DNA of 64,000 bases from Gammaproteobacteria bacterium. Its GTDB lineage: Bacteria > Pseudomonadota > Gammaproteobacteria > Steroidobacterales > Steroidobacteraceae. The stretch lies in contig JABCZO010000016.1 of assembly GCA_013289615.1 (NCBI GenBank), positions 1 to 64,000 of the forward strand, given 5' to 3'. This document shows, one piece after another, positions 12,497-54,481 of the stretch (positions are counted from its first letter, which is position 1; each line of letters opens with the position of its first letter). The position numbers and the translations under genes were made by a program. The notes beneath the pieces are model-generated. The model ran no database searches and had not been told where the DNA came from. It saw nothing but the letters and a program-made list of their open reading frames with translations.

Positions 12497-13495
12497 ATGA
12501 TGCCAGCGACGCCGGCGGGGCCCGACCCGAGCGCTGAGCCGCACCAGGCAACGCGCGTGAACTCGGGCAGTTGCCGCAATTGCAACGCGCCGCTGACCGG
12601 ACCCTTTTGCGCGCAGTGCGGCCAGCACACGCACGAAAGCGCGCGCGCGCTAGGGCTGGTACTGCACGACGGCTGGCACCTGCTGACACATCTCGACGGT
12701 CGATTCTGGTCCACGCTGCGCACGCTGCTGTCGCGGCCGGGGCAGCTTACGGTCGACTACTTCGCCGACCGTCGCGCCCGTTACGTGTCGCCGTTCCGGC
12801 TGTACCTGGTGCTCAGCATCGCGTTCTTCGCGCTCGCCGCAGCCAACTCGAATCTGGTGTCGAAAGCCGCGGCCAGCGGCCCGCAGCCGCTGACACCGGC
12901 CGAGCTCACCGATTTGCAGAAAGAACTGCAGCAGGCAGCTCCTTCGATCGCGGAGCATGTCACGGCAACCGACGCCGGCATGGATGTGAATCTGGACGCG
13001 AACCAGTGCGCCAGGATCGAGCTGCACTGGCCGTGGCTGCAAGGGCGCCTGCGCAGCGCCTGCCGGCGTGCGATCGCCGACAACGGCAAGTCGGCAGCAC
13101 ACGCATTCGGCTCCTACGTCCCGAAGATGATGTTCGTGTTCCTGCCGCTCGTGGCCCTGATCATGGTGCCGCTGTACCGTACTCAACACCGGTACTATGT
13201 GGAGCACCTGGTGTTCTTCCTGCATACGCATGCCGCGCTGTTCCTGGTCATGGTCGGCGACATGCTGCTCGGCATGGCGGCGCGCAGCCTGCCGTACCTG
13301 AGCGCCGTGGTGACCGTCGGCGACTTTGCCGCGGCCTGCTATGCGGTCTGGTACGTGTACCGGGCGATGCGCCGATACTACGGCGATACGCGCGCGCTGA
13401 CGTTGGCCAAGCTCGCGGTGGTCGGCATTGCCTACCAGATCTTCCTGGCGATCATGGTCGCTGCGACTTTGCTGCTCAGCGCGCTGACGGCCTGA
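12497..13495 (+). CDS. DUF3667-like membrane protein with N-terminal zinc ribbon
   Basis: CRNCNAPLTGPFCAQCGQ zinc ribbon, HLLTHLDGRFWSTLRTLLSRPGQLTVDYFADRRARYVSPFRLYLVLSIAFFAL, several C-terminal TM helices. Confidence 0.8.
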   Translation: MMPATPAGPDPSAEPHQATRVNSGSCRNCNAPLTGPFCAQCGQHTHESARALGLVLHDGWHLLTHLDGRFWSTLRTLLSRPGQLTVDYFADRRARYVSPFRLYLVLSIAFFALAAANSNLVSKAAASGPQPLTPAELTDLQKELQQAAPSIAEHVTATDAGMDVNLDANQCARIELHWPWLQGRLRSACRRAIADNGKSAAHAFGSYVPKMMFVFLPLVALIMVPLYRTQHRYYVEHLVFFLHTHAALFLVMVGDMLLGMAARSLPYLSAVVTVGDFAAACYAVWYVYRAMRRYYGDTRALTLAKLAVVGIAYQIFLAIMVAATLLLSALTA

Positions 13496-13571
13496 AGGGT
13501 GCCGCCTGGCTTGAATCGGCCGCGGCCGCTCGATGGTCAACGCTCAGCCTCGCCAGTACGCGTGGGTCAGC

Positions 13572-14999
13572 TCACCGGTTAATGCTGTCGATGGCGCGCT
13601 TGTCCACCGCCAGCGCCGCTTCGTGTAGCGCTTCCGCCAGCGTCGGATGCGCGTGGATGGTGCGCTGCAGGTCCTCGGCGCTGGCCTGGAATTCCATCGC
13701 CAGGGTGGCCTCGGCGATCAGCTCGCCGGCCATGGGCCCGATGATGTGCGCACCGAGGATGGTGTCGGTGTCGCTCGACGCCAGGATCTTCACGAAGCCG
13801 GCGGCTGCTTCCATGGCACGCGCGCGACCGCTGGCCGCGAACGGGAATACGCCGCTCTTGAACGCGGTCCCGGCCGCCTTGAGCTGCTCCTCAGTCTGGC
13901 CAACCCATGCAATCTCGGGCGCGGTGTAGATCACCGACGGAATGACGTCGTAATTCACGTGCGCATAGCGGCCGGCGATGCGGTCGGCAACGGCGATGCC
14001 CTCCTCCTTGCCCTTGTGCGCCAGCATCGGCCCGCGCACGCAGTCGCCGATCGCCCAGACCCCTTCGGCTCCAGTCCGGCACTGCACGTCAACCTGGATG
14101 AATCCGCGCTGGTCGAGCCCGACGCCGCAATCGGGCGCCAGCAGATTCGCGGCATACGGGCGACGGCCGACGGCGACGATCAGCTTGTCGGCACTGAGGC
14201 TGTGCGCGCCCGCCTTGTCGTTGTAGGCGACGGTGACGCTGCCGTTGACGACCTGGGCGCCGGTCACCGTGGCGCCGAGCCGGATGTCGAGCCCCTGCTT
14301 CCTGAAGTGGCGCGCGGCCTCGCCGGCGAGCTGCTGATCGGCAATGGCGAGAAAGCTATCGAGCGCCTCGAGTACCACCACCTCGGAGCCGAGGCGGCGC
14401 CAGACGCTGCCCAGTTCCAGGCCGATGACGCCGGCACCAATCACGCAAAGCGTCCTGGGCACCGCGGCGAATTCGAGTGCATCCCAGGAATCAACGATGT
14501 ACTCATGGTCGAAGCGAGCCGATTCGAGCTCGGTGGGGACCGAACCGGTGGCGAGCACCACGTTACGCGCGTCGATCTCGGTGCTGGTGCCATCGTGCCT
14601 GGTCACCTGCACGCGTCGGCCCGCCAGCAGGCGAGCGCGGCCGAACATGGCGGTCACGCCGGCCGCCTTGAACAGCGAGCCAATGCCGCTGGTCATGTTG
14701 CGCACGATGGTCGCGCGGCGCTTTTGCATCACGGCCAGATCGAGCCCAATGCCGCTGACCGCAATGCCGTGCGCAGCGAATTCGCTCTGCGCACGATGCA
14801 GCAGCTCGGACGATTCGAGCAGGGCTTTTGATGGTATGCAGCCGGCGTTCAGGCAGGTGCCGCCGAGTGCGGTCCCGCCATCGCGGTTCACCCAGCCGTC
14901 GACGCAGATCACCTTGAGAGCGTTCTGCGCGGCACGGATCGCCGCCGGATAGCCAGCCGGTCCGGCGCCGATAACGACGACGTCGACCGGCTCAGCCAT
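13572..14999 (-). CDS. lpd: Dihydrolipoyl dehydrogenase
   Basis: VVVIGAGPAGYPAAIRAAQ, GGTCLNAGCIPSKALLESS redox-active disulfide, IHAHPTLAEALHEAAL; downstream of sucAB. Confidence 0.96.
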   Translation of the reverse strand: MAEPVDVVVIGAGPAGYPAAIRAAQNALKVICVDGWVNRDGGTALGGTCLNAGCIPSKALLESSELLHRAQSEFAAHGIAVSGIGLDLAVMQKRRATIVRNMTSGIGSLFKAAGVTAMFGRARLLAGRRVQVTRHDGTSTEIDARNVVLATGSVPTELESARFDHEYIVDSWDALEFAAVPRTLCVIGAGVIGLELGSVWRRLGSEVVVLEALDSFLAIADQQLAGEAARHFRKQGLDIRLGATVTGAQVVNGSVTVAYNDKAGAHSLSADKLIVAVGRRPYAANLLAPDCGVGLDQRGFIQVDVQCRTGAEGVWAIGDCVRGPMLAHKGKEEGIAVADRIAGRYAHVNYDVIPSVIYTAPEIAWVGQTEEQLKAAGTAFKSGVFPFAASGRARAMEAAAGFVKILASSDTDTILGAHIIGPMAGELIAEATLAMEFQASAEDLQRTIHAHPTLAEALHEAALAVDKRAIDSINR

Positions 15000-26200: not shown

Positions 26201-26986
26201 ATGAATCGGCAAACTATCGTGCGTCAACGCAAGGCGGCGGCAGGCACGGCGACGAAGCGCCGCCCGCGGCGCAGCGCGGCGCGCGGGCACGGCCAGCACA
26301 CCGGCGCGCAGCTGATCGAAGTCGCCGGGCGTATATTCGCCGACCAGGGTTTTGACGGCGCCACCGGCCAGGACATCTGCCGGCGGGCCGGCGTCAACAG
26401 CGCCGCGATCGTCTACCACTTCGGCGGCATGGCGGGCCTGCACCGTGCCGTGCTCGAGGAGGCGCAACGGCGGCTGGTCAGGACCGAGACACTGGTCGCT
26501 GCGGTCAGAGCCGAGCGCGATCCGCGGCGCCAGCTCGAGGCGTTCCTGGGCTTGATAGTCAGGGCTTTGACCAGCCCGGTGTCGCAGTCCTGGGCGGGCA
26601 GGCTGTTCAGCCGGGAATGGGTCACGCCGTCGACCGTCTATGGGCCGGCGCACGATCGAGCGCTCGCCGCCCGCTCCAGAACGCTCAAGTCGATCGTCGG
26701 TGCACTGACCGGACACCCGCCCAGCCACCCGCTGGTGGCACGCGGCTGCATCAGTGTGATGGCGCCGTGTGCGCTGCTGCTACTGGTCAATCGGCGCAAG
26801 CTGCGACGGCTGATGCCGCAGCTGCATATCGGCGCACCATCGGCGCCGGAGCTCACGCGCCACCTGGTCGATTTCGCACTGGCGGGGCTGGGCGCAATCT
26901 CCGGCCGTCGAATCGACCGGCAAGCCGTCCCTTTCAATAGGCCGAGGCGCCCGGCCGTACGTCGGCGTGCTGCCAGGCACGCTTGA
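26201..26986 (+). CDS. TetR-family regulator, CecR-like
   Basis: LIEVAGRIFADQGFDGATGQDICRRAGVNSAAIVYHFGGMAGLHRAVLEEAQRR HTH; divergent from the efflux operon. Start MNRQT preferred over ORF start 26111. Confidence 0.88.
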   Translation: MNRQTIVRQRKAAAGTATKRRPRRSAARGHGQHTGAQLIEVAGRIFADQGFDGATGQDICRRAGVNSAAIVYHFGGMAGLHRAVLEEAQRRLVRTETLVAAVRAERDPRRQLEAFLGLIVRALTSPVSQSWAGRLFSREWVTPSTVYGPAHDRALAARSRTLKSIVGALTGHPPSHPLVARGCISVMAPCALLLLVNRRKLRRLMPQLHIGAPSAPELTRHLVDFALAGLGAISGRRIDRQAVPFNRPRRPAVRRRAARHA

Positions 26987-28667
26987 ACTGCTGTTCTACC
27001 ATCGCCGCCTTGACGTTCTTGTGCTGCGCGGTCAGCGCCAGCTCCAATCCGTGCAACGACCAGCCGTTACCGGGATTGCGCTCGAGATCGGTCCGGTAGA
27101 CCGTCTCGGCCGCGGCCGGCTGCGCGGCCTTCAGCAGTTGCGCACCCAGCAGATGGCGAGCGGGAAAGAACCAGTCGCTCGGTTCATCGTAGGCGAGCGC
27201 ATCCTCGCTATCGGCAGCGCGTCGCAATAGCGCGATCGCGTCATCCGCCCGGTTCTCGGCGTCGGCGATGCGTGCCTGCACGATCAGCGCGGCAACGCGA
27301 AAAACGTCCGCGGCGCTGTTAAGTCCGGCGATCGCATCTGCCGGCAGAGTCTCGGTCAGCCGTTGCAGTTGTGCCAGGGTGGCGCGTGCCGCAGCGACCT
27401 GCCCGATGGCCGCCTGCGCGACGCCTTTGCCGTACAGGTACCCGGCCGTGAGCGCCGGCAATCTTGGATCCGGCGCCGACTCGCTCAGCATCTGATCCCA
27501 GACGCCAAAGCGCACCAGGGCGGCATACTTTTCCGCGACCTGCCAGTCGAAGCCCGGCATCGCCAGCAGCATTGAATCCGGGATCGTGTTGCGCAGGCTC
27601 TCGACCGCCTGCAGAGTTTCCGCACGGCGGCCCTCCATCGCAGCGGAATAGGCCAGGAACTGATAGTTGTGAGCGGTGTACATCGCGTAGTAGTCGGGCG
27701 GCGTGGTCCGGGCGAAGTAGGCCCGATCGGCGGCGGCGCCCTGGCGGTTGGCTTCTGCCGCATCCTCATAGCGCCCCAGAAGCTGCATGATGTGAGCCGG
27801 CATGTGATCCATATGCCCCGCTGCCGGCATCATGCCTGCCAGCCGCTGCGCGCTCAGCAGCGCTTTTTCCGGATGCCCGGATGCCTCCATCGCGTGCACG
27901 TAGTAGTGGTTCGCGCCCGGATGGTTCGGGTCGCGCGCTAGCACCGCCTCGAGTGTCCGGGTGATCTCAAGCGTACCGGGGGCAGGCTTGTGATCCGCGC
28001 TCCATAGCTTCCAGGCGTAGATGTTCATCAGCGCTTCGGCGTAAAGCGTCTGCACGTCGAGGTCGTCGGGAAATCGTTTCGCGACTCCGGCCATCGCCTG
28101 CGCGTAGGCATTCAGCACCGGCGCCCTGTTGGACGCATCCAGGGCCGCGGCGCTCGGGTAGCGCATCTGCAGCGCATCGATCAGCGCCTGTTCGACCGGT
28201 GAGGCCGCGGCCGCGTTTTGCTTTGCGCTCTGCAGCGCATCCCAGGCAACCCGGGCGCGTGTTTCTGCCATGAACGGCAGGTTGTAGTTTGGGCCGACGG
28301 TCAGCGCGACACCCCAGTAGCACGATGCACATTGCGGATCGAGCAGCGCGGCGCGGGCGAACGAGCGGGTCGATTCATCGTGATTGAATCCCCACAGGTA
28401 TCGCATGCCCTGGTCGAAATATTGCTGTGCCTCGCTCGAGTGGCTACTGATCGACCGATGGAAACTGCCCAGACCGTCGAACAGCATCGCACCTTGCGCC
28501 CATTCCTGCAGCGTCGCCGGCGCCTGCATCGGCGGCATCTGCCGCTCGGCGGCGGGCGCGGGCGCCCCAGGAATTGGTATGACCGGCGCGATCGGCGCAG
28601 CGGAATTGGAGCAGGCGGCCAGCGTGGCACCCGCCAGCAGCGACAGGATCGGATTTCGGTGAAGCAT
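26934..28667 (-). CDS. TPR-repeat lipoprotein
   Basis: Signal/lipobox MLHRNPILSLLAGATLAAC; TPR-like repeats (FDQGMRYLWGFNHDESTRSFARAALLDPQCASCYWGVALTVGPNYN; ANHYYVHAMEASGHPEKAL). Confidence 0.85.
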   Translation of the reverse strand: MLHRNPILSLLAGATLAACSNSAAPIAPVIPIPGAPAPAAERQMPPMQAPATLQEWAQGAMLFDGLGSFHRSISSHSSEAQQYFDQGMRYLWGFNHDESTRSFARAALLDPQCASCYWGVALTVGPNYNLPFMAETRARVAWDALQSAKQNAAAASPVEQALIDALQMRYPSAAALDASNRAPVLNAYAQAMAGVAKRFPDDLDVQTLYAEALMNIYAWKLWSADHKPAPGTLEITRTLEAVLARDPNHPGANHYYVHAMEASGHPEKALLSAQRLAGMMPAAGHMDHMPAHIMQLLGRYEDAAEANRQGAAADRAYFARTTPPDYYAMYTAHNYQFLAYSAAMEGRRAETLQAVESLRNTIPDSMLLAMPGFDWQVAEKYAALVRFGVWDQMLSESAPDPRLPALTAGYLYGKGVAQAAIGQVAAARATLAQLQRLTETLPADAIAGLNSAADVFRVAALIVQARIADAENRADDAIALLRRAADSEDALAYDEPSDWFFPARHLLGAQLLKAAQPAAAETVYRTDLERNPGNGWSLHGLELALTAQHKNVKAAMVEQQFKRAWQHADVRPGASAY

Positions 28668-29032
28668 CGGTCTGCCTGCCCTCGGCCGGCACGTCACGGC
28701 CCGCGCTTCGGTCGTATTCCGAAAATAGAAATCATCGGGCACCGTGGAAAAGTATCGACCGTCTGGTGTCGGCCTGGCTCAACGCGCACGCGGCAGCAGC
28801 ATGGCCGCGGCCAGCGCCAGGACCAGTGATTTAACAGTACCGATCCGCATCGCCGTGAGCTGTGCCCGCCACCTGTTGTCGGGATTCTATCGCGATCGCG
28901 CCAAAGTTTTTGAAAGCCAGCGAATCCACGGGACTTGCGGTAGAGTAAAAGCTCGAGCGCGCAGGGATACTCGAAGCGCTGACGGACCGGGGATGATCTC
29001 AAACGCAGCACACGGCGTGGCCCTCGTGTTGC

Positions 29033-30967
29033 ATGGCAGCAGGCATGATCAAGATCTGCAACTACCACGCGGTCGGGCTGCAACGGCACCGCAGCGGCGC
29101 GCCGCATCGCATCGGGCTGCTCGGCTGTGCGCTGCTGATGATTGCGCCGATCATTGTGATGGCTCAATCGAGCGCGCTGCCGCTGCCGCTGCTGTATAAG
29201 AAATTCGAGCAGGCCAGGGAGGCCAATGACTTCCCGGCGGCTGAAGCCTATGGCCGCAGCGCGCTGTTGGCGACTGAAAGCGCCCCGGGCGCCAACCACC
29301 ACGACGTCATCGATCTTTTGCTGCGCCTGGGTGAGGTGTCAGACAAGGCCGGTGACGATCAGCAGGCGGTGGATTTCTACCGGCGAGCGCAGAAGCTACA
29401 GGAGTCGGATCTGGGGGCCGATCATCCAGACCTCATTCCGGTGCTGACCGCACTTGCGGATCTGCTTATAAAGGACAAGCGCTACGCGGATGCGGAAGTG
29501 CTGCTGCAGCACATACTGAACATCGAGCGCGCCGCCTTTGGGGAACGGCACGAGAACGTACTGGCAACGCTCAAACAGCTGCGCGACACCTATCGCGCCG
29601 CCGCCGACTCCGAGGCGGCCGCCCGCACCGACCGGCAGATCGAGCAGTTCGGCGCGACCTCCAGAGCCTTCGGTCCCGGTGCGCCGCCGCAGGGCGTCCC
29701 AGGCAAGGATCGCCGCTACAAGATGAAACAGGACTACGCCACGGTGCGTGTGTTTTATGGAACCGATCGTAAGACCACCGGATCGCTGAAGCCTGCTGAG
29801 TTCTACGGCGCGGAGCGCGGCGATCTTCAATACGGCTACCTGGATGTCACCATTCCGGCCGCGCACCAGGAGGCCGAACTGGAAACGCGCTCGCCCTGGG
29901 ACATGTACACGCTGTTCATGGGCGAGGCCGGCCTGAGAGGCCGCTTTGTGCTGCTGGATGAGGTCACGCCGCTGGCAAAAGACAGCTTCATCGGCGCATT
30001 GCGCAAGCAGATCAAGGAAGCGCCTTCGAAAGACGTGTTCATATTCGTGCACGGCTACAATTCAACTTTTGAAGATGCCGCCCGACGCTGTGCGCAATTG
30101 GCCTATGACCTAGATTTCGACGGCACCCCAATGATGTACAGCTGGGCATCCGCGGGTAGCGCCACTGCTTATACAAAGGATGAAGCCACGGTCCAGTCCA
30201 GCGGCATGAAAATGGCGCAGATGCTGGACGACGTGGTCGCTCAATCGGGCGCCGAGCGCATACATCTGATAGCCCATAGCATGGGCAATCGCGCGCTCAT
30301 AGAGGCGCTGCAGAGCTATCTGGCGAATCGCGAAGCGGGCAAGCGCCAGCACATATTCGGCCAGATCGTCTTCACGGCACCCGACGTCGATCGCGACTAC
30401 TTTGTCGGAGCGATCAAATCGCTGTCCGGCGCCGCGGCGCGCGTCACGCTGTACGCTTCCGACACCGACCTGGCGCTTCAATCCTCGCAGGTCCTGCATG
30501 ACGCGCCGCGCGCCGGACTGGCGGGGGTCAACATCATTTCACTGCCCGGCATCGATACCATCGACATGTCCGCGGTGCCGGCCGACAGCCTCGGGCACAA
30601 TTATTTTGCCGCCAATGCCGGTGCCATCTACGACCTGTTCCGCCTGTTCTGGAGTGGCGATCCGCCGCCAATGCGCTGCGGCATGAACGGCCGCAATACC
30701 GGAGCCCTGCTGAGCGTCTGGCTGTTCAATGTCGACGTATGCAAGGGTGATGACCTGCTGGAAGCGGGCGTGATGTTGAAGCGATTCGGCGCCCAGGCGC
30801 GCGCGCAGGTGCAGGCCAATATTCTGGCATTGACCGATCCGACGCAGAAGCAGCAATGGTTGCTGATCCTGAAGCGGCTGGACGGCTTGCTGGCTCCTGA
30901 CGCTCAGGCAGCCCCGGCAGCTGCGGCAACGGCAGGAGCGGCGGCGACGGGAGCGGCAACGAAATGA
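29033..30967 (+). CDS. TPR-containing DUF900-type alpha/beta hydrolase, probably exported
   Basis: N-terminal hydrophobic segment, TPR repeats, then VRVFYGTDRK...FIFVHGYNSTFEDAARRCAQLAYDLDFDGTPMMYSWAS...IHLIAHSMGNRALIEAL nucleophile elbow. Start may be 29045. Confidence 0.88.
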   Translation: MAAGMIKICNYHAVGLQRHRSGAPHRIGLLGCALLMIAPIIVMAQSSALPLPLLYKKFEQAREANDFPAAEAYGRSALLATESAPGANHHDVIDLLLRLGEVSDKAGDDQQAVDFYRRAQKLQESDLGADHPDLIPVLTALADLLIKDKRYADAEVLLQHILNIERAAFGERHENVLATLKQLRDTYRAAADSEAAARTDRQIEQFGATSRAFGPGAPPQGVPGKDRRYKMKQDYATVRVFYGTDRKTTGSLKPAEFYGAERGDLQYGYLDVTIPAAHQEAELETRSPWDMYTLFMGEAGLRGRFVLLDEVTPLAKDSFIGALRKQIKEAPSKDVFIFVHGYNSTFEDAARRCAQLAYDLDFDGTPMMYSWASAGSATAYTKDEATVQSSGMKMAQMLDDVVAQSGAERIHLIAHSMGNRALIEALQSYLANREAGKRQHIFGQIVFTAPDVDRDYFVGAIKSLSGAAARVTLYASDTDLALQSSQVLHDAPRAGLAGVNIISLPGIDTIDMSAVPADSLGHNYFAANAGAIYDLFRLFWSGDPPPMRCGMNGRNTGALLSVWLFNVDVCKGDDLLEAGVMLKRFGAQARAQVQANILALTDPTQKQQWLLILKRLDGLLAPDAQAAPAAAATAGAAATGAATK

Positions 30968-32418
30968 GTCCCGCATTGTCACGCCCGCTCGCTTGCCTGC
31001 TGGCGCTGAGCCTGTGCCAGATCAATAGTGCGCAGGCGGCACCGGATGATCCGGAGATACGCGCCTTCGTCAACGACACCTGCATCGTGGCTGACGAACC
31101 CTACCTCCGGCCGCCGCCGGATCCCAGCGACTCGGCCGATCAGAGCAGCGCGAAGTTCTTTCCGCTGATCGGCCTGGTGGTCGGCAAGCTTACTGAAATG
31201 CTGATCAATCACATGGTCAGTGGCTCGAGCGCGCACATCAGGGCGGACGCCGCCCGCAAGGACACGCGCTATGCGATGTCCCGGGAGATGAACCTGTATC
31301 GGGCCGAGTTCCAGCCCGAGCCGGTCGTGCGCCTGAACACCAGGATCGGATGCATGACCATCGTTGCCGCCAGGTTCATGCCGGCGAGCACCGACTGCAC
31401 CGCGGCCTACGTGCCAAAGCAGCTGACACGCGAAACCATGAAGCTGCCGGAGAGCGCATGGAAGGCGTCGAGGAGCGACGACTCTGTCGAGAACCAGTTG
31501 CGACGCGCCAATGTGTGCGTAGACGGCAAGGCCCGCTCCGTGTACGAGGCGCGCTTCGAGTTCTCGCAGGATGGAACCGCCTACCGCCTCAGAAACGCGG
31601 GCTACCAGATCGAATCGCTGCTGACGACCCAGGACAAAGCGGCATCGCGCAGCGCGTTCTATACGCTGGAGATCTCCCAGCCCGGCAAGAGCGATCAACG
31701 CGAGACACTGTCGACGGCCGTGGTCAAACTTGGCACCGTGACCGCCGGCACGCGCTCTGCGGGTTCCGCGACCGACTCGCCGCCGTGGCTGAATGTACCG
31801 GCTCTGTCCACCGAGGCGCGACGTGCCTATGACGAGAAGACCAGGGTTCACCAGCAGGTCATGGGCGAGGTCGACGCGCTCAAGCGTGCACTGACAAGAA
31901 ACCAGCGCGTGCTGTCCGGATTGGATCAGCGCATCGCCGAGGCGAACGCCGACCTCGCCGCGGGCCTGCGCGAGCAGCGCACCAAGGTTGCGGTCCAGAT
32001 CCAGACGCAACAGGCCGAACTCGACGCCAGTAATGCCGAATACCAGGATCTGCCGCAGACGCCGCTGGAGTTCATGCCAGTGACGATCGTAGTTGCGGTG
32101 ACGGAAACGCAATCTGAAAAGGCGGCCATGCTCGCGCTCGCCAGCGTAATCGACGCCGGCGGCGCGCAGATCGCGTCGGCCGGCGGCACCGCGAGCTCGG
32201 CTCTCTTTGCAAGGTCACTGGATTTGACCGACAATCCCGCCAAGGCAAATCCGGCGGCTGAACTCGAGAGCGCGCGGGCACATTATTTCGATGCGCTGGT
32301 CGAGGCCAAGACCAACACGGCGGCTGCGCCGGGCGAGAACGCCGGCGGCAATCTCGCGCTGGCCAGGACCAGGTACAACGACGCCAGGCAAGCACTCGGA
32401 CTGGAGCCCATAAAATGA
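30964..32418 (+). CDS. Hypothetical exported protein with coiled-coil region
   Basis: Signal-like MSPALSRPLACLLALSLCQINSAQAA; coiled coil (RAYDEKTRVHQQVMGEVDALKRALTRNQRVLSGLDQRIAEANADLAAGLREQRTKVAVQIQTQQAELDA); ATGA overlaps on both sides; no family recognised. Confidence 0.85.
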   Translation: MSPALSRPLACLLALSLCQINSAQAAPDDPEIRAFVNDTCIVADEPYLRPPPDPSDSADQSSAKFFPLIGLVVGKLTEMLINHMVSGSSAHIRADAARKDTRYAMSREMNLYRAEFQPEPVVRLNTRIGCMTIVAARFMPASTDCTAAYVPKQLTRETMKLPESAWKASRSDDSVENQLRRANVCVDGKARSVYEARFEFSQDGTAYRLRNAGYQIESLLTTQDKAASRSAFYTLEISQPGKSDQRETLSTAVVKLGTVTAGTRSAGSATDSPPWLNVPALSTEARRAYDEKTRVHQQVMGEVDALKRALTRNQRVLSGLDQRIAEANADLAAGLREQRTKVAVQIQTQQAELDASNAEYQDLPQTPLEFMPVTIVVAVTETQSEKAAMLALASVIDAGGAQIASAGGTASSALFARSLDLTDNPAKANPAAELESARAHYFDALVEAKTNTAAAPGENAGGNLALARTRYNDARQALGLEPIK

Positions 32419-32963
32419 TCTCTACTACCAACCCGATCAATTCTCGTCGCGCCAGGATGCGCGCCCTGCAACGGCTTGTGGTCGCACTGGCGATCGGCTC
32501 GGTGCCGATACTCGCCGGCGGCGCCGACACAGTGATCTCAGATACGCAAATCGAGCAGGCGCTGCAGCCGCCTCCGAAGACCCGCGGCATACTGGTGCGG
32601 CCAAAGCCCGAGGCTCAGCAGATGATCAATCTGAATATTCCCTTCGAATACAATTCCAGCGAACTGCAGTCCCAGGCCACCGCTCAGCTCAAGCAACTGC
32701 GGTCGGCACTGAATTCGCAATCACTGAGCAAGGATCGATTCATGGTCGCCGGCCATACCGACGGCAAGGGCAGTGCGCAATACAACAAGCAGCTCTCGAT
32801 GCGTCGTGCCGAGGCGGTCAGGCGCTACCTGGTGGACAACGGCGTCGCGGCGGCCCGACTGCAGGCGGTCGGCTACGGCTCCGAGCATCTGGCATCGCCC
32901 GACCATCCGGAGGATCCGGCCAATCGCCGAGTAGAAATCCGCAATCTGGGCGAGAAGCCCTAG
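32415..32963 (+). CDS. OmpA-family (peptidoglycan-binding) protein
   Basis: NIPFEYNSSELQSQATAQLKQLRSALNSQSLSKDRFMVAGHTDGKGSAQYNKQLSMRRAEAVRRYLVDNGVAAARLQAVGYGSEHL...NRRVEIRNLG. Confidence 0.95.
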   Translation: MISTTNPINSRRARMRALQRLVVALAIGSVPILAGGADTVISDTQIEQALQPPPKTRGILVRPKPEAQQMINLNIPFEYNSSELQSQATAQLKQLRSALNSQSLSKDRFMVAGHTDGKGSAQYNKQLSMRRAEAVRRYLVDNGVAAARLQAVGYGSEHLASPDHPEDPANRRVEIRNLGEKP

Positions 32964-32968
32964 CAGCC

Positions 32969-34414
32969 ATGCACGAACGAGCCATGTGGCAGTGCATTGT
33001 ACTCATCCTGGGTGTTGCGCTCGGCTGCTGTGCGCCTCCAGCAGCGCTGGCCGAGCAGCGCGCGCTGCTGGTTGGAGTCGGCAAGCTCGACATTCCGGGC
33101 AACGACCTGCCGAGCATCGAACTGGATCTGGATCGGATGCATGAGATGCTCAATCTCATGGGTTTCGAGGACCGGCAGATACATACCCTGCAGGACGAGG
33201 CGGCGACTTCGACCAGCGTGATCGCGGAATTCAACGGCTGGCTCAAGCAGGGAGTGCAGCCGGAGGATCGCGTGGTGTTCTACTTCAGCGGTCACGGCAG
33301 CAACATTCCGGACGAGCACGGCGACCAGGACGATAACGTCAGTCAGGTCCTGGTCACGCACGATGTGAAACTGGTTCACGTCAAGGCCGGCCATTCGCTC
33401 GCCGGCGTGCTGCCGGATTTCCGGATATCGGAATTGCTGGCGGCGAACCCGAGCAGGCACGTGCTGTTCATCGTCGATTCATGTCACTCCGGCACCGTAA
33501 CGCGCTCGTTCACCCTGGACAACCACAGTCTCGGCTCTACGCCGGTGTTCGTTAAGTCGTTCAACTACCCTGGCATGCCGGCGTCGCCGCCGCGCACCGT
33601 TACGCGTGGCCTGGCCGGCCCGCAGGACCGCAAGGAACCGCAATGGGATCCTAAGGTCAACTACATCGCCGTAACCGCGGCTGCAGACAATCAGGAAGCC
33701 ATTGGCACCATGAATGGCGGCGTCTTTACACTCGGCCTGACGGACGCGGTCAAACGGCTCACCAGCGAGGGTAAGAGTCCCACGCCTAAGGAACTGCGCG
33801 ACGATGCCGACAGCTACATTCGCAGCAAGGTGGACAAGAACCAGATTCACACGCCGCAGATAATGGGTAATGAAACACTGGCCGATGCGCCGATCAGGGT
33901 CATTTCATTGAATGCTTCCAACGGCCCCAACCGCAAGCGGCTGCTCGAGCTGGTGGCACTGCAACCCCAGCATATCGACATTACGGCATCGAGCAGTCGC
34001 TATGCGGTTGACGAACCGGTCAAGCTGACGCTGAAGGTTCCGGCGGACGGATACCTGAACGTGGTGAGCGTCGATTCAAAGGACAATGCCACGGTACTGT
34101 TTCCGAATGGCATCCAGAAGACCAACGCGGTCAGCGCCGGAGCGTTTACCTTTCCGACCGCCCAGATGGCTTTTGATCTGCTGGCATCGGAGCCGATCGG
34201 GCCAACCCTGGTGGTGGCGTTCCTGAGTAGCGACCCGATCAATTTCTACCAGGAAACGGTGGAGGACCGCGACGAGGCTGGCCACATCAAGGTGGATTTC
34301 GCGTCGTTGTCGCACACTGCGACCCGCGCCATCCGCATCGCACCGCGCAACAAGGACATCTACGCGGCACAGCTCGAGTTACAGATCGTCGCGGCTCCGG
34401 CCGGCAAGCATTAA
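32969..34414 (+). CDS. Exported caspase-family (C14) protease with C-terminal DUF4384-like domain
   Basis: Signal peptide; RALLVGVGKLDIPGNDLPSIELDLDRMHEMLNLMGF; His motif VVFYFSGHGS; Cys motif VLFIVDSCHSGTVTR; C-terminal YAVDEPVKLTLKVPADGYLNVVSVDSKDNATVLFPN. Confidence 0.93.
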   Translation: MHERAMWQCIVLILGVALGCCAPPAALAEQRALLVGVGKLDIPGNDLPSIELDLDRMHEMLNLMGFEDRQIHTLQDEAATSTSVIAEFNGWLKQGVQPEDRVVFYFSGHGSNIPDEHGDQDDNVSQVLVTHDVKLVHVKAGHSLAGVLPDFRISELLAANPSRHVLFIVDSCHSGTVTRSFTLDNHSLGSTPVFVKSFNYPGMPASPPRTVTRGLAGPQDRKEPQWDPKVNYIAVTAAADNQEAIGTMNGGVFTLGLTDAVKRLTSEGKSPTPKELRDDADSYIRSKVDKNQIHTPQIMGNETLADAPIRVISLNASNGPNRKRLLELVALQPQHIDITASSSRYAVDEPVKLTLKVPADGYLNVVSVDSKDNATVLFPNGIQKTNAVSAGAFTFPTAQMAFDLLASEPIGPTLVVAFLSSDPINFYQETVEDRDEAGHIKVDFASLSHTATRAIRIAPRNKDIYAAQLELQIVAAPAGKH

Positions 34415-35116: not shown

Positions 35117-37192
35117 TCAAAACGGGTAATCGGTCAGGGCCGTTCCGAGTGCAGCCCGCAATTCTTCCAGCTGCGGCTCGAAGTTTCGCCAATGCTCAAC
35201 TGCATCGCGATAGATCGGTTGCCGCACCTGCTCGGAGCTGGCGGTTCGCACCGCGCGCTCGGTCTGGTAAAAACGCAGGCAACGATCCTCGAATGGCAGC
35301 TTGCAATAGTCGAGCAGGCGCCGCACCGCCGCTTCGGTGTCGCGCACCGTCTCTTCATAGAACACACGCAGCACGACGCCCGGGAGCACGCGGTCCCAGT
35401 GCGCCATCAATGCCACGTACTCGGCGTAGTAGCGACCCAGGTCGGTGAGGTCGTAACTGAAGTGCTGGCCGGAAGCGAACAGTTGCTTGAAGGCGCTGAA
35501 GCAGCTCGCCATGGGATGGCGGCGGGTGTCGATGATCCTGGCGTTCGGAAGAATGAGGTGAATCAGGCCGATGTGCGGAAAGTTGTTCGGCATCTTGTCG
35601 ATGAAGAATGGGGCGTCGCGGCGCTGGATGCGAGTGCGCTCTATGTATTCCTGTCCGAGTTCGCGCAACTGAGCCGCATCGAGCTCGAGCAGGATGTCCG
35701 GGTAGCGCGAGGCATCCGCTGGCGCTCGCTTGCCACTCAGGCGTCGCGCGATCTCGATGATCTCAGGCAGTTCGCCCGTGCCGTCGACCTGCGAGTGGCT
35801 CGCGAGGATCTGCTCTACCAGGGTGGACCCGGATCGCGGCAGGCCGACGATGAAGATCGGCGCCGGGTCGGGGCAGCCATGTCCCGCGTGTCGATCGAAC
35901 AGCTCCGGCGTGCAGGCGCGGATCAGATCCTCGGTGGCGGCGTGGTTTTCCCCGGCACTGTAGCGCACCTCGGTGCGACGCTGGGCATTGCCGCGCTGAT
36001 ACTGCGCGAATGCTTCAGCGTACCGGCCTCGATCTTCGTACGCCTTGCCCAGGGCAAAGCACAGTGCCGGGTTTTCGCGCGGCAGGCAGCGGCCCGATGC
36101 CGCGGCAGCGCTCATCGCGGCCACCTCCTGATCCGTGAAGTCGAAGGTTTTCAGGTTGGCGAGACTCCAGTAGGCATCGCCAAACAGCGGATCGAGCGCG
36201 ATCGCGCGATGGTAGGCGTCGATCGCCTCGGAGGTGCGGCCCACGGTCTTGAGCGCGTGGCCCAGGCTGGCCAGATCGAGCGCCGTATGGCCCGGACGGG
36301 CGACCACCCTCTGGTAGTTGTCGATGGCCTCCTGTTGCCGCCCGACGCGAACCAGCACCGAAGCGAGCAGGATCCGATAGCTGGTGTTGTCGGGATCGAC
36401 GGCCAGCAGCCGGTCGGTTTCCTCGAGCGACTGCTGAAACTTTCCCTGCTTCATCAGCACGTGAGCGTAGCCGGCGCGCGCAAAATGAAATTCCGGCGCC
36501 AGCGCCACACAACGGGCAAACAGTCGCTCGGCATCATCGAATACACCCAGTCGCGTGGCGATTTCCGCCAATAGCCTCAGGGCATCGACGTCGTCGGGGG
36601 AATGACGCAAATAGTCGCGACAGCCGGTCTCGGCCTCAGCAAGCTTTCCCTGCGCTACCAGTTCCGCAATTTTGACCAGCACTTCAGGCCGGGCCGCAGC
36701 CTTCAGATACTCGCGCATCGCCTCATCGGCACCGGTCTGATCACCCAGACTGGTGAGCATGTCGGCGATCAGTCCCCATGCCGCGGCTCGGTTCGGGTCC
36801 AGTGCCAGAAGCTGCCGAAGAGCGGCCACCGAGCCCTTCAGGTCACCGCACTGGCGCAGGATCAGCCCCTTTTCCTGATGCACCGATGGCCAGTCGCGAC
36901 GCCTGGCAATCAATCCGTCAAGCAATGCCAGTGCCTCCGAACTGGCGCCTTGCTGGTGGCGCGCCTTGGCCAGCAGGAACAGTGCATTCGGTTCCTGCGG
37001 CGCCGTCGCCAGGATCACGCGGATGTCTTGTTCGGCCTGCTGCGGCTGGCCCGACTTGAGCAGTCGGACGGCTCGCTCCAGGGCGGACTGTAGCGGGCCT
37101 GGCATCGCTCTGGCTCGCGGGTTCGATCGGGCAACACTACCGGCGGCAGGCTCCGCAGCGGGTTGCCCAAGCCCTCCGCTGCGCGTCGTCAT
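35117..37192 (-). CDS. TPR-repeat sulfotransferase family protein
   Basis: N-terminal TPR array; PIFIVGLPRSGSTLVEQILASHSQVDGTGELPEI PAPS-binding motif; FIDKMPNNFPHIGLIHLILPNARIIDTRRHPMASCFSAFKQLF. Confidence 0.94.
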   Translation of the reverse strand: MTTRSGGLGQPAAEPAAGSVARSNPRARAMPGPLQSALERAVRLLKSGQPQQAEQDIRVILATAPQEPNALFLLAKARHQQGASSEALALLDGLIARRRDWPSVHQEKGLILRQCGDLKGSVAALRQLLALDPNRAAAWGLIADMLTSLGDQTGADEAMREYLKAAARPEVLVKIAELVAQGKLAEAETGCRDYLRHSPDDVDALRLLAEIATRLGVFDDAERLFARCVALAPEFHFARAGYAHVLMKQGKFQQSLEETDRLLAVDPDNTSYRILLASVLVRVGRQQEAIDNYQRVVARPGHTALDLASLGHALKTVGRTSEAIDAYHRAIALDPLFGDAYWSLANLKTFDFTDQEVAAMSAAAASGRCLPRENPALCFALGKAYEDRGRYAEAFAQYQRGNAQRRTEVRYSAGENHAATEDLIRACTPELFDRHAGHGCPDPAPIFIVGLPRSGSTLVEQILASHSQVDGTGELPEIIEIARRLSGKRAPADASRYPDILLELDAAQLRELGQEYIERTRIQRRDAPFFIDKMPNNFPHIGLIHLILPNARIIDTRRHPMASCFSAFKQLFASGQHFSYDLTDLGRYYAEYVALMAHWDRVLPGVVLRVFYEETVRDTEAAVRRLLDYCKLPFEDRCLRFYQTERAVRTASSEQVRQPIYRDAVEHWRNFEPQLEELRAALGTALTDYPF

Positions 37193-37205
37193 GCGCCGCC
37201 GGAAA

Positions 37206-39647
37206 TCACTTGCGGTAACTCAGCGTGATGCCGACGGTGCGCGGCCTTGCCACCGTGTCGCGGCCATACTGTCCGCCCTGGTAGAAGTCATAGTCGGAGC
37301 GATTGATGAACAGCACCGCCTCCTTGTCGAACAGGTTCTCACAGTAGAGCTCGGAGACCCACTTGCCCCACGCGGCCCCGAGCCGGAAATTGGTGAGCGA
37401 ATAGCTGGGTTGCGGGCCGCGCGTTTCCAGAAACATCGTACTCCAGGAGCTGGCCGTGTACGTGGTGCTGAGCTGCGCATGGCCGCGCACTTCGGCCGAC
37501 CAGGGGAACTCGTAGCGGGCGATGAAGGCACCCTTCTCCTTCGGCACGAACGCCAGTTCCGTCCCCGAGGGCGCATGCCAGAAGACGCCCGCGGTGCCGC
37601 AAGGACCGCCGACGCAGAACGACTGGGTGAGATGCGCATCGATATAGGCGCCATTGAGACTGAGCGTGAGCCTATCGATCGGCCGAAAGCTCAAGTCGAA
37701 TTCGGCGCCGTTGTCGGTCGCGGTGCCGGCGTTGCCGCTGACGAAGAAGATGACGGTCGGCACCAGGGTGGTGAACTGGATGTTGGTCCACTTCATGTGA
37801 TAACCGGTGATGTTGAAGCGCAGCCGGTTATCGAGCCACTGGGATTTCAGGCCGACTTCGTAGTTACGCACGAAATCGGACTTGTAGCTCGCCGTGATAC
37901 CGTCCTGGGGTGCGGTGCCGCGGTTCACGCCATTGGGCCGGTAGCCCTCCGAATAGGTGCCGTAGACCAGGACTCCGGGTACGAGCTTATAAGAGGCGTT
38001 GAATTTCTTGATGTTGCCGACCTCGGCCGCGGTGACTCGCGGATCGAGCTCGAATACCCCTCCGAGGGGCTTGGCCAGGAACAGGCCGTTGATCGTGTTG
38101 CGCTCGTCAAACCAGCGGGCGCCGGCGAGCAGCGACAAACTGGAAGTCACATCCCAGGTGACCTCGCTGAATGCGGCGGTTTGCCGATCGGTCCGGTTAC
38201 CCTGAAAGGACAGATAGGTGTAGGGATCGGTACCGCTCACCGAGTCTCCCGTATTAAGGCCCGGGGTGTCGTAGGCCTCGGTATAGCGGTGCTCGATGTT
38301 CTCATTGAACACGCCGACGATCGCATGCACCGGGAAGCTCAACGGCGTCTGCAGCCGCAACTCGTTGTCCCAGCGTTTGATGTAGTTGGTGCCGAGGAAC
38401 TCCATGCGCGGGTCCTTGCAGCCGCTCAACACGCCGGTGCCGCTGTTGTCGCAATTGTAGAACGGCGCGATGAACCCGGAATACTGGGAGTACATCGAGT
38501 AGTCGTGCACGTACGTGACGTTGCGGTCGAAGTAGGAGCCGGCGTAGGTGACTTCGAAACCGCCGAACCTGCCGGTGGCCGTGAGCGAGCTCTGGCGAAA
38601 CACGTCGTCCAATGAATCATTGAAATAGCGCGCGACATTCAGGTCGCCGCCGTTGAGTCCCGGATCGACATCGAACACGCCCTGGCTGGTGAGGGTCTGG
38701 GTGACGAACTTGAGATCGACGGTCCAGTGCTCGTTCGGAATGGTACGCAGCGCCAGCCGGAAGCCTTCCTTGCCCGAGGTGTTGAAGTCATTCCTGGCGT
38801 ACAGGCTGTTATTGACCGTCGGAAAGTTGGTGACCGTGAGCCCGGTCGAGGTGACGTTCGGAAACGTGTAGGTGAAGTTCGACACGACGTTGTTGATATA
38901 ACCGCCGCGCTGATCCGACCAGCCCACGAATCGAAGCGCCGTGTTATCGCTCAACGGGATGTTGGCGAAGCCCTCCACCTTGTAGCTGGGATCGCCGTGG
39001 TCGGTCACGGAATAGCCGAAGTCGGCACCATAATCCTCGGCGGCCGGATTGGGCGCCTTGGTGATGATGCGCACCGTACCGGCCTCCGACCCCGAGCCGA
39101 ATAGCGTGCCCTGGGGACCTGACAGCGCTTCGATGCGCTCAATGTCGTAGGTCTCGATGTCCACTGAACGGCCGGCATTGGTCACCGGCTGCTCATCCAG
39201 GTAGATGGCCACCGAGGGCTGCACGCCGGAAGTCTCGACCAGGTTGACCGACCCGTCGGACAGCCCGCGGAAGTAGATCTGCGCCGAGCCCGGACCGGTG
39301 GAGGTGAACGACAGACTGGGAACCAGCAGCGCATAATCGTTGAAGCTGTTGACGCCCAGGTTCTCGAGCATCGCGGACGAGAGCACCTGGATGCTCGCCG
39401 CGACGTCCTGGGCATTCTCGGTGCGCTTCTCCGCCGAGACGACCACCTCTTCGAGCTGGCTCGACTCGGCACTGGTATCCGCGGCGCGCGCTGCACCTGC
39501 GTGACCGGCGATCGCAGCGATCACGGCGCAGGCGATAGGGGATAGGCGCTGTAGCGGCAGCGTCGGCGCACCGATCGGCGTGAATGGCGTGTTCGTACGC
39601 GGACGGCCGATACGCAAGGCCCTGCCGTGGTATTTTCGCGTCACCAT
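37206..39647 (-). CDS. TonB-dependent receptor
   Basis: Plug domain (EEVVVSAEKRTENAQDVAASIQVLSSAML...IERIEALSGPQGTLFGSGSEAGTVRIITKAPN), long beta-barrel, terminal aromatic-rich TLSYRK. Confidence 0.95.
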   Translation of the reverse strand: MVTRKYHGRALRIGRPRTNTPFTPIGAPTLPLQRLSPIACAVIAAIAGHAGAARAADTSAESSQLEEVVVSAEKRTENAQDVAASIQVLSSAMLENLGVNSFNDYALLVPSLSFTSTGPGSAQIYFRGLSDGSVNLVETSGVQPSVAIYLDEQPVTNAGRSVDIETYDIERIEALSGPQGTLFGSGSEAGTVRIITKAPNPAAEDYGADFGYSVTDHGDPSYKVEGFANIPLSDNTALRFVGWSDQRGGYINNVVSNFTYTFPNVTSTGLTVTNFPTVNNSLYARNDFNTSGKEGFRLALRTIPNEHWTVDLKFVTQTLTSQGVFDVDPGLNGGDLNVARYFNDSLDDVFRQSSLTATGRFGGFEVTYAGSYFDRNVTYVHDYSMYSQYSGFIAPFYNCDNSGTGVLSGCKDPRMEFLGTNYIKRWDNELRLQTPLSFPVHAIVGVFNENIEHRYTEAYDTPGLNTGDSVSGTDPYTYLSFQGNRTDRQTAAFSEVTWDVTSSLSLLAGARWFDERNTINGLFLAKPLGGVFELDPRVTAAEVGNIKKFNASYKLVPGVLVYGTYSEGYRPNGVNRGTAPQDGITASYKSDFVRNYEVGLKSQWLDNRLRFNITGYHMKWTNIQFTTLVPTVIFFVSGNAGTATDNGAEFDLSFRPIDRLTLSLNGAYIDAHLTQSFCVGGPCGTAGVFWHAPSGTELAFVPKEKGAFIARYEFPWSAEVRGHAQLSTTYTASSWSTMFLETRGPQPSYSLTNFRLGAAWGKWVSELYCENLFDKEAVLFINRSDYDFYQGGQYGRDTVARPRTVGITLSYRK

Positions 39648-48175: not shown

Positions 48176-54481
<6,306 letters not shown>

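Follow-up and report, generated by a model that had tools for sequence, protein, structure and literature searches.

Several bacterial defence systems include caspases, and the caspases of bacteria have mostly been discussed as cytoplasmic effectors of death or defence. The closest described relatives of the locus reported here are the prokaryotic metacaspase operons surveyed by Asplund-Samuelsson et al. in 2012, who counted OmpA in 14 of them; that survey also assigns a possible N-terminal signal peptide to many prokaryotic metacaspases and discusses metacaspase-amidase fusions as lysis systems (PMC3501461). The locus that we analysed, within a stretch of 64,000 nucleotides (the window) from an uncultured bacterium, likewise combines genes for a caspase domain and an OmpA domain in one operon, and since such operons were already counted in 2012 the general association is not new. 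The further components found here, namely a TPR-DUF900 hydrolase, a protein family that we call B and a DUF4384 tail on the caspase, are not described in this arrangement in the part of the survey available to us. A literature search found no paper joining DUF900 with a caspase, or DUF4384 with OmpA, and the sources that we found give no explanation of the caspase-OmpA pairing. Two clusters on unrelated plasmids are partly alike: on plasmid p2 of Azospirillum sp. TSA2s, caspase/DUF4384 genes adjoin an OmpA wall-binding gene, as genes C and D do here, and on a plasmid of Deinococcus sp. NW-56 they adjoin an S-layer wall-binding gene. However, neither cluster has a B family member or an annotated DUF900 hydrolase, and identity to our caspase is only 28-30%. 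The conserved operon described below offers a small, tractable system for the role of envelope caspases, with an undescribed partner family.

The operon comprises four plus-strand genes at 29033-34414 of the window: A (29033-30967), B (30964-32418), C (32415-32963) and D (32969-34414). Genes A and B share an ATGA stop/start overlap at 30964-30967, B and C share a second at 32415-32418, and C and D are separated by 5 bases. A first-pass annotation, made from the letters of the sequence, had proposed precisely these genes, junctions and active-site motifs, and we recovered all of them at its coordinates. The start of A is the one point that we would amend; the reading frame does open at 29033 as claimed, but the ATG at 29045 may be the real start, being preceded by an AGCAGG-like ribosome site and marking where the alignable sequence of relatives begins. 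Scans around the operon detected no promoter-like site on the plus strand, and terminator-like hits were about as numerous as the mean for shuffled sequence. The GC content of the operon is close to that of its surroundings and gives no sign of recent acquisition. The junctions and their conservation support the prediction that A-B-C-D is one translationally coupled operon.

Gene D encodes a C14 caspase (Peptidase_C14, 1.1e-14) with a C-terminal DUF4384 domain at residues 345-423 (6e-15). Its catalytic dyad, H109 in SGHGS and C172 in DSCHSG, is intact and invariant in all ten D proteins compared, as are S107 and D170, which lie two residues before the His and the Cys, respectively, and form an acidic-type S1 pocket. 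Because of these acidic S1 residues a basic P1 preference is expected, and we predict cleavage after Arg or Lys. The closest solved relatives of D by sequence are metacaspases, and D has the p20 region, the His/Cys dyad and the acidic S1 pocket in common with type I metacaspases such as Candida glabrata MCA-I (7qp0) and yeast Mca1 (4f6o). It differs from them in its predicted export, in its DUF4384 tail and in lacking an acidic residue at the position of D245, which together with D198 and D214 ligates calcium in CgMCA-I (PMC9622860). An acidic loop in the alignment with solved structures had suggested calcium activation, but the D245 position is occupied by Arg (R179 in the window) in 10 of 10 D proteins and the D198 position by Ser in the window; as no D protein has an acidic D245 equivalent, calcium activation is not to be assumed. 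Among the NCBIfam models, none of which reaches its cut-off for A, B, C or D, the EACC1-associated caspase (NF047832) scores D at 37.4 bits against a cut-off of 140. Three further C14 genes lie elsewhere in the window's genome.

Gene A combines a predicted Sec-type signal sequence (~23-44), TPR repeats (~60-205; TPR_12, 8e-16) and a DUF900 alpha/beta hydrolase domain (318-529; 7.3e-43). Its Ser-His hydrolase site is intact: the nucleophile elbow AHSMG places the serine at S416, and S416 and H522 are invariant in six of six A proteins. Also invariant is R228, at the boundary between the TPR and hydrolase parts, which may have a structural role only. By sequence, the closest solved relatives of the N-terminal part are kinesin light chain TPRs. 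DUF900 is a family without known function, although a lipoprotein signal has been predicted in at least one Rhizobium member (PMC11878206). A shares its catalytic domain with the DUF900 hydrolases (PF05990) and differs from them in its fusion to TPRs and in its caspase partner. No second DUF900 gene was detected in the window's own genome.

The product of gene C (182 aa) is a putatively exported OmpA C-terminal domain (8.2e-23) and nothing else, with no N-terminal outer-membrane beta-barrel of the kind that defines an OmpA porin. In OmpA/Pal structures an Asp/Arg pair binds diaminopimelate, and the corresponding D116 and R131 are invariant in 5 of 5 C proteins. Its closest solved relative by sequence is Pal. 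C has the full domain and the conserved Asp and Arg in common with OmpA-C/Pal proteins (4g4v and others), and it is set apart from them by the missing barrel, by the lack of a visible lipobox and by being the operon partner of a caspase.

Pfam bore out the domain calls of the first-pass annotation for A, C and D, and also its view of B as an unrecognised coiled-coil protein, for B matched no Pfam family consistently and had no solved relative by sequence. AlphaFold2 models of B built from eight sequences reached a mean pLDDT of 63 (42 with three sequences); a coiled-coil hairpin at 283-362 is predicted confidently and a beta region at ~102-260 moderately, with much of the remainder modelled poorly. 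Compared with PDB and viral structures, the model gave no match at E below 0.001. With a profile of B, family members were detected in 7 of 396 genomes of the order, and the bog_1223 genome supplied an eighth; a weak match in genome G028, within an exopolysaccharide-type cluster, was treated as a false positive and left out. A single-sequence search of 369 genomes of the class and a profile search of 398 genomes of the phylum detected B in no genome other than the window's own, and plasmids did not yield it either. We regard B as an undescribed, probably exported family whose members have to date been seen only next to genes for DUF900 proteins and caspases.

All four proteins were claimed to have signal-like N-termini, and hydropathy and inspection by eye agree: in the window proteins and most relatives a hydrophobic stretch is followed by an AxA-like site, and there is no consistent second transmembrane segment. 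The D homologues L031-L034 are trimmed at the N-terminus and uninformative on this point. In addition, B has four invariant cysteines (40, 130, 145 and 185), A has two (Cys549 and Cys570, in its C-terminal region) and D only the catalytic one, a pattern that fits folding in an oxidising periplasm. All four products thus appear to be Sec-exported and periplasmic. The proposal of a periplasmic, wall-tethered protease-lipase module accordingly stands in part; an exported, wall-linked location is well supported by sequence for both protease and hydrolase. Lipase activity is a candidate role suggested by the fold of A, and the sensing or execution of envelope damage or death that the annotation raised is conjectural.

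We next consider how far the arrangement is conserved. In a metagenome-assembled genome of the same genus (palsa_1209), A-B-C-D occur in the same order with the same ATGA, ATGA and 5-base junctions, at 66-83% identity, with ABC exporter genes upstream and a pyridoxamine-oxidase-like gene downstream as in the window. Since both flanks and junctions match in this sister species, the cluster sits at one inherited site. In the sister locus (L003) the oxidase-like gene, at 13487-14142 on the minus strand, is split over two frames; a search for an empty site in the genus by means of this gene found too few orthologues. The same genome carries on contig 15 (L035, 6628-8019) a second D-type caspase, 40% identical and broken across frames, through decay or assembly error.

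Two other families of the order keep part of the operon, as A-B-D, B-C-D, B-D or C-D, at 36-55% identity. L057 has A-B-D; L056 has B-C-D on a contig that starts inside B; L055 has A, then two opposite-strand genes including one for CHASE2, then B-D; L054 has B-D with A ~6 kb away; and in a genome of a third family (G038), C-D lies where the contig ends. In L038 and L058, ABC is retained and D is replaced by two other exported C14-DUF4384 caspases, divergent and within ~2 kb of A. All five adjacent A-B pairs keep the A/B overlap, and four of the five B-C pairs keep the B/C overlap; ATGA junctions are still present at an identity of only 57%, and the A/B and B/C overlaps persist in homologues down to 36-60%. 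C is absent at three of the eight B loci, so it is not a fixed part of the module and wall tethering is not essential.

It had been allowed that homologues of the four genes might rarely co-occur, and they do co-occur. Across 396 genomes of the order, B and a strong D homologue were both present in 6, B only in 1, D only in 4 and neither in 385 (Fisher p 2.8e-10, a value that overstates certainty because the test counts genomes and not independent events). These counts assume that the B and D searches drew on the same 396 genomes, with which the set size and listing agree. In a tree, the six D proteins encoded beside B, from two families, form one clade (support 99/98); its sister clade consists of four D proteins that are not accompanied by B and come from the window's own family. 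The operon arrangement is thus conserved, and B and D are co-inherited. Three of the four D loci without B have a DUF900 hydrolase gene that faces D from within ~2.5 kb, and a CHASE2-type gene divergent from D (Pfam was run on L031 only). The caspase thus appears to have been linked to DUF900 for longer, or more widely, than to B.

CHASE2 genes lie near L031, L054, L055 and L058, and none was detected in the window's own genome, which is 83% complete. The CHASE2 gene is always followed by one for an exported protein of ~290-300 aa that matches no Pfam family (L054, 10926-11834; L055, 5401-6276). A protein of 1112-1117 aa with a signal-like start, a Sel1 repeat, a long coiled coil and a C-terminal caspase is encoded at 13277-16615 of L055 and 370-3723 of L054. 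In bog_1223 (L038, 234-19027), ABC lies within an island of exported caspases; upstream are genes for an ECF sigma factor and for two Ser/Thr kinases, one with TPR and one with Calx-beta, and the island also includes two C14-DUF4384 genes and a C14-FGE-sulfatase gene. The presence of CHASE2 receptors and of additional exported caspases close to the relatives hints at a role in signalling or processing at the envelope.

The reading that we tentatively favour is that the operon encodes an envelope-located processing module, performing limited, regulated proteolysis and ester or lipid hydrolysis on an extracytoplasmic cue. All four products would be exported by Sec, and C would hold peptidoglycan, tying the module to the wall where C is present. 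A would act as a TPR-scaffolded serine hydrolase and D as a caspase-type protease cutting after Arg or Lys, with DUF4384 as a docking part. B, probably disulphide-bonded through its cysteines, would be their coiled-coil partner, bridging or restraining the enzymes in what may be a physical complex. So organised, caspase and hydrolase would act on envelope or surface substrates, and in relatives the cue could arrive via the CHASE2 receptors or Ser/Thr kinases whose genes adjoin the module. One conserved operon would then send out of the cytoplasm a caspase with its active site intact, together with a serine hydrolase and a protein that binds the wall. It is doubtful that D goes further and cuts A at the TPR-hydrolase boundary, next to R228, or cuts B as an inhibitor or scaffold, thereby switching on the second enzyme in an extracytoplasmic caspase cascade that CHASE2 would govern in relatives.

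Other readings draw on the same observations. The enzymes might mature secreted or surface proteins, D trimming at basic sites and A removing or adding an acyl or ester group; the basic P1 expected from D170 and S107 is consistent with this, as are the conserved exporter genes upstream in the window and in L003 and an autotransporter beta-domain gene near the module in L055, yet the candidate substrates nearby differ between genomes, and we consider this unlikely. A caspase and a lipase-like enzyme in the envelope could form a self-destruction device, in which envelope damage activates D, D activates A and the envelope is breached, and metacaspase-amidase fusions have been discussed as lysis systems (PMC3501461). 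The operon, however, lacks an immunity gene, a pore former and a peptidoglycan hydrolase; the genes scanned included no gasdermin, death-fold protein or other effector, and PADLOC did not connect the operon with known components of defence or death systems. We consider a lysis device unlikely. An anti-phage operon is a highly improbable reading, for all that bacterial caspases are familiar from defence: PADLOC-DB held no complete defence system, only generic caspase and MotB/ZorB-like domain matches, the flanks are ordinary genes, the cluster occupies a fixed, inherited site in two species, and no phage sensor was recognised. Finally, the four exported proteins could serve separate functions from one transcript, given that DUF900 and OmpA genes often occur alone and that C, and sometimes D, is lost or replaced. 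We think this improbable, as the ATGA overlaps are conserved, B and D co-occur, the D clade follows B across families and a DUF900 gene lies near D even where B is absent.

Within the window the operon is flanked at 26934-28742 and 35117-39647, on the minus strand, by genes for a TPR protein, a TPR-sulfotransferase and a TonB receptor; these are absent from that place in the sister species, and the genes beyond them are syntenic. Further along, at 48176-54481 on the minus strand, lies a gene for a hybrid histidine kinase of 2101 aa with a very long HAMP array, a GAF domain and three receiver domains.
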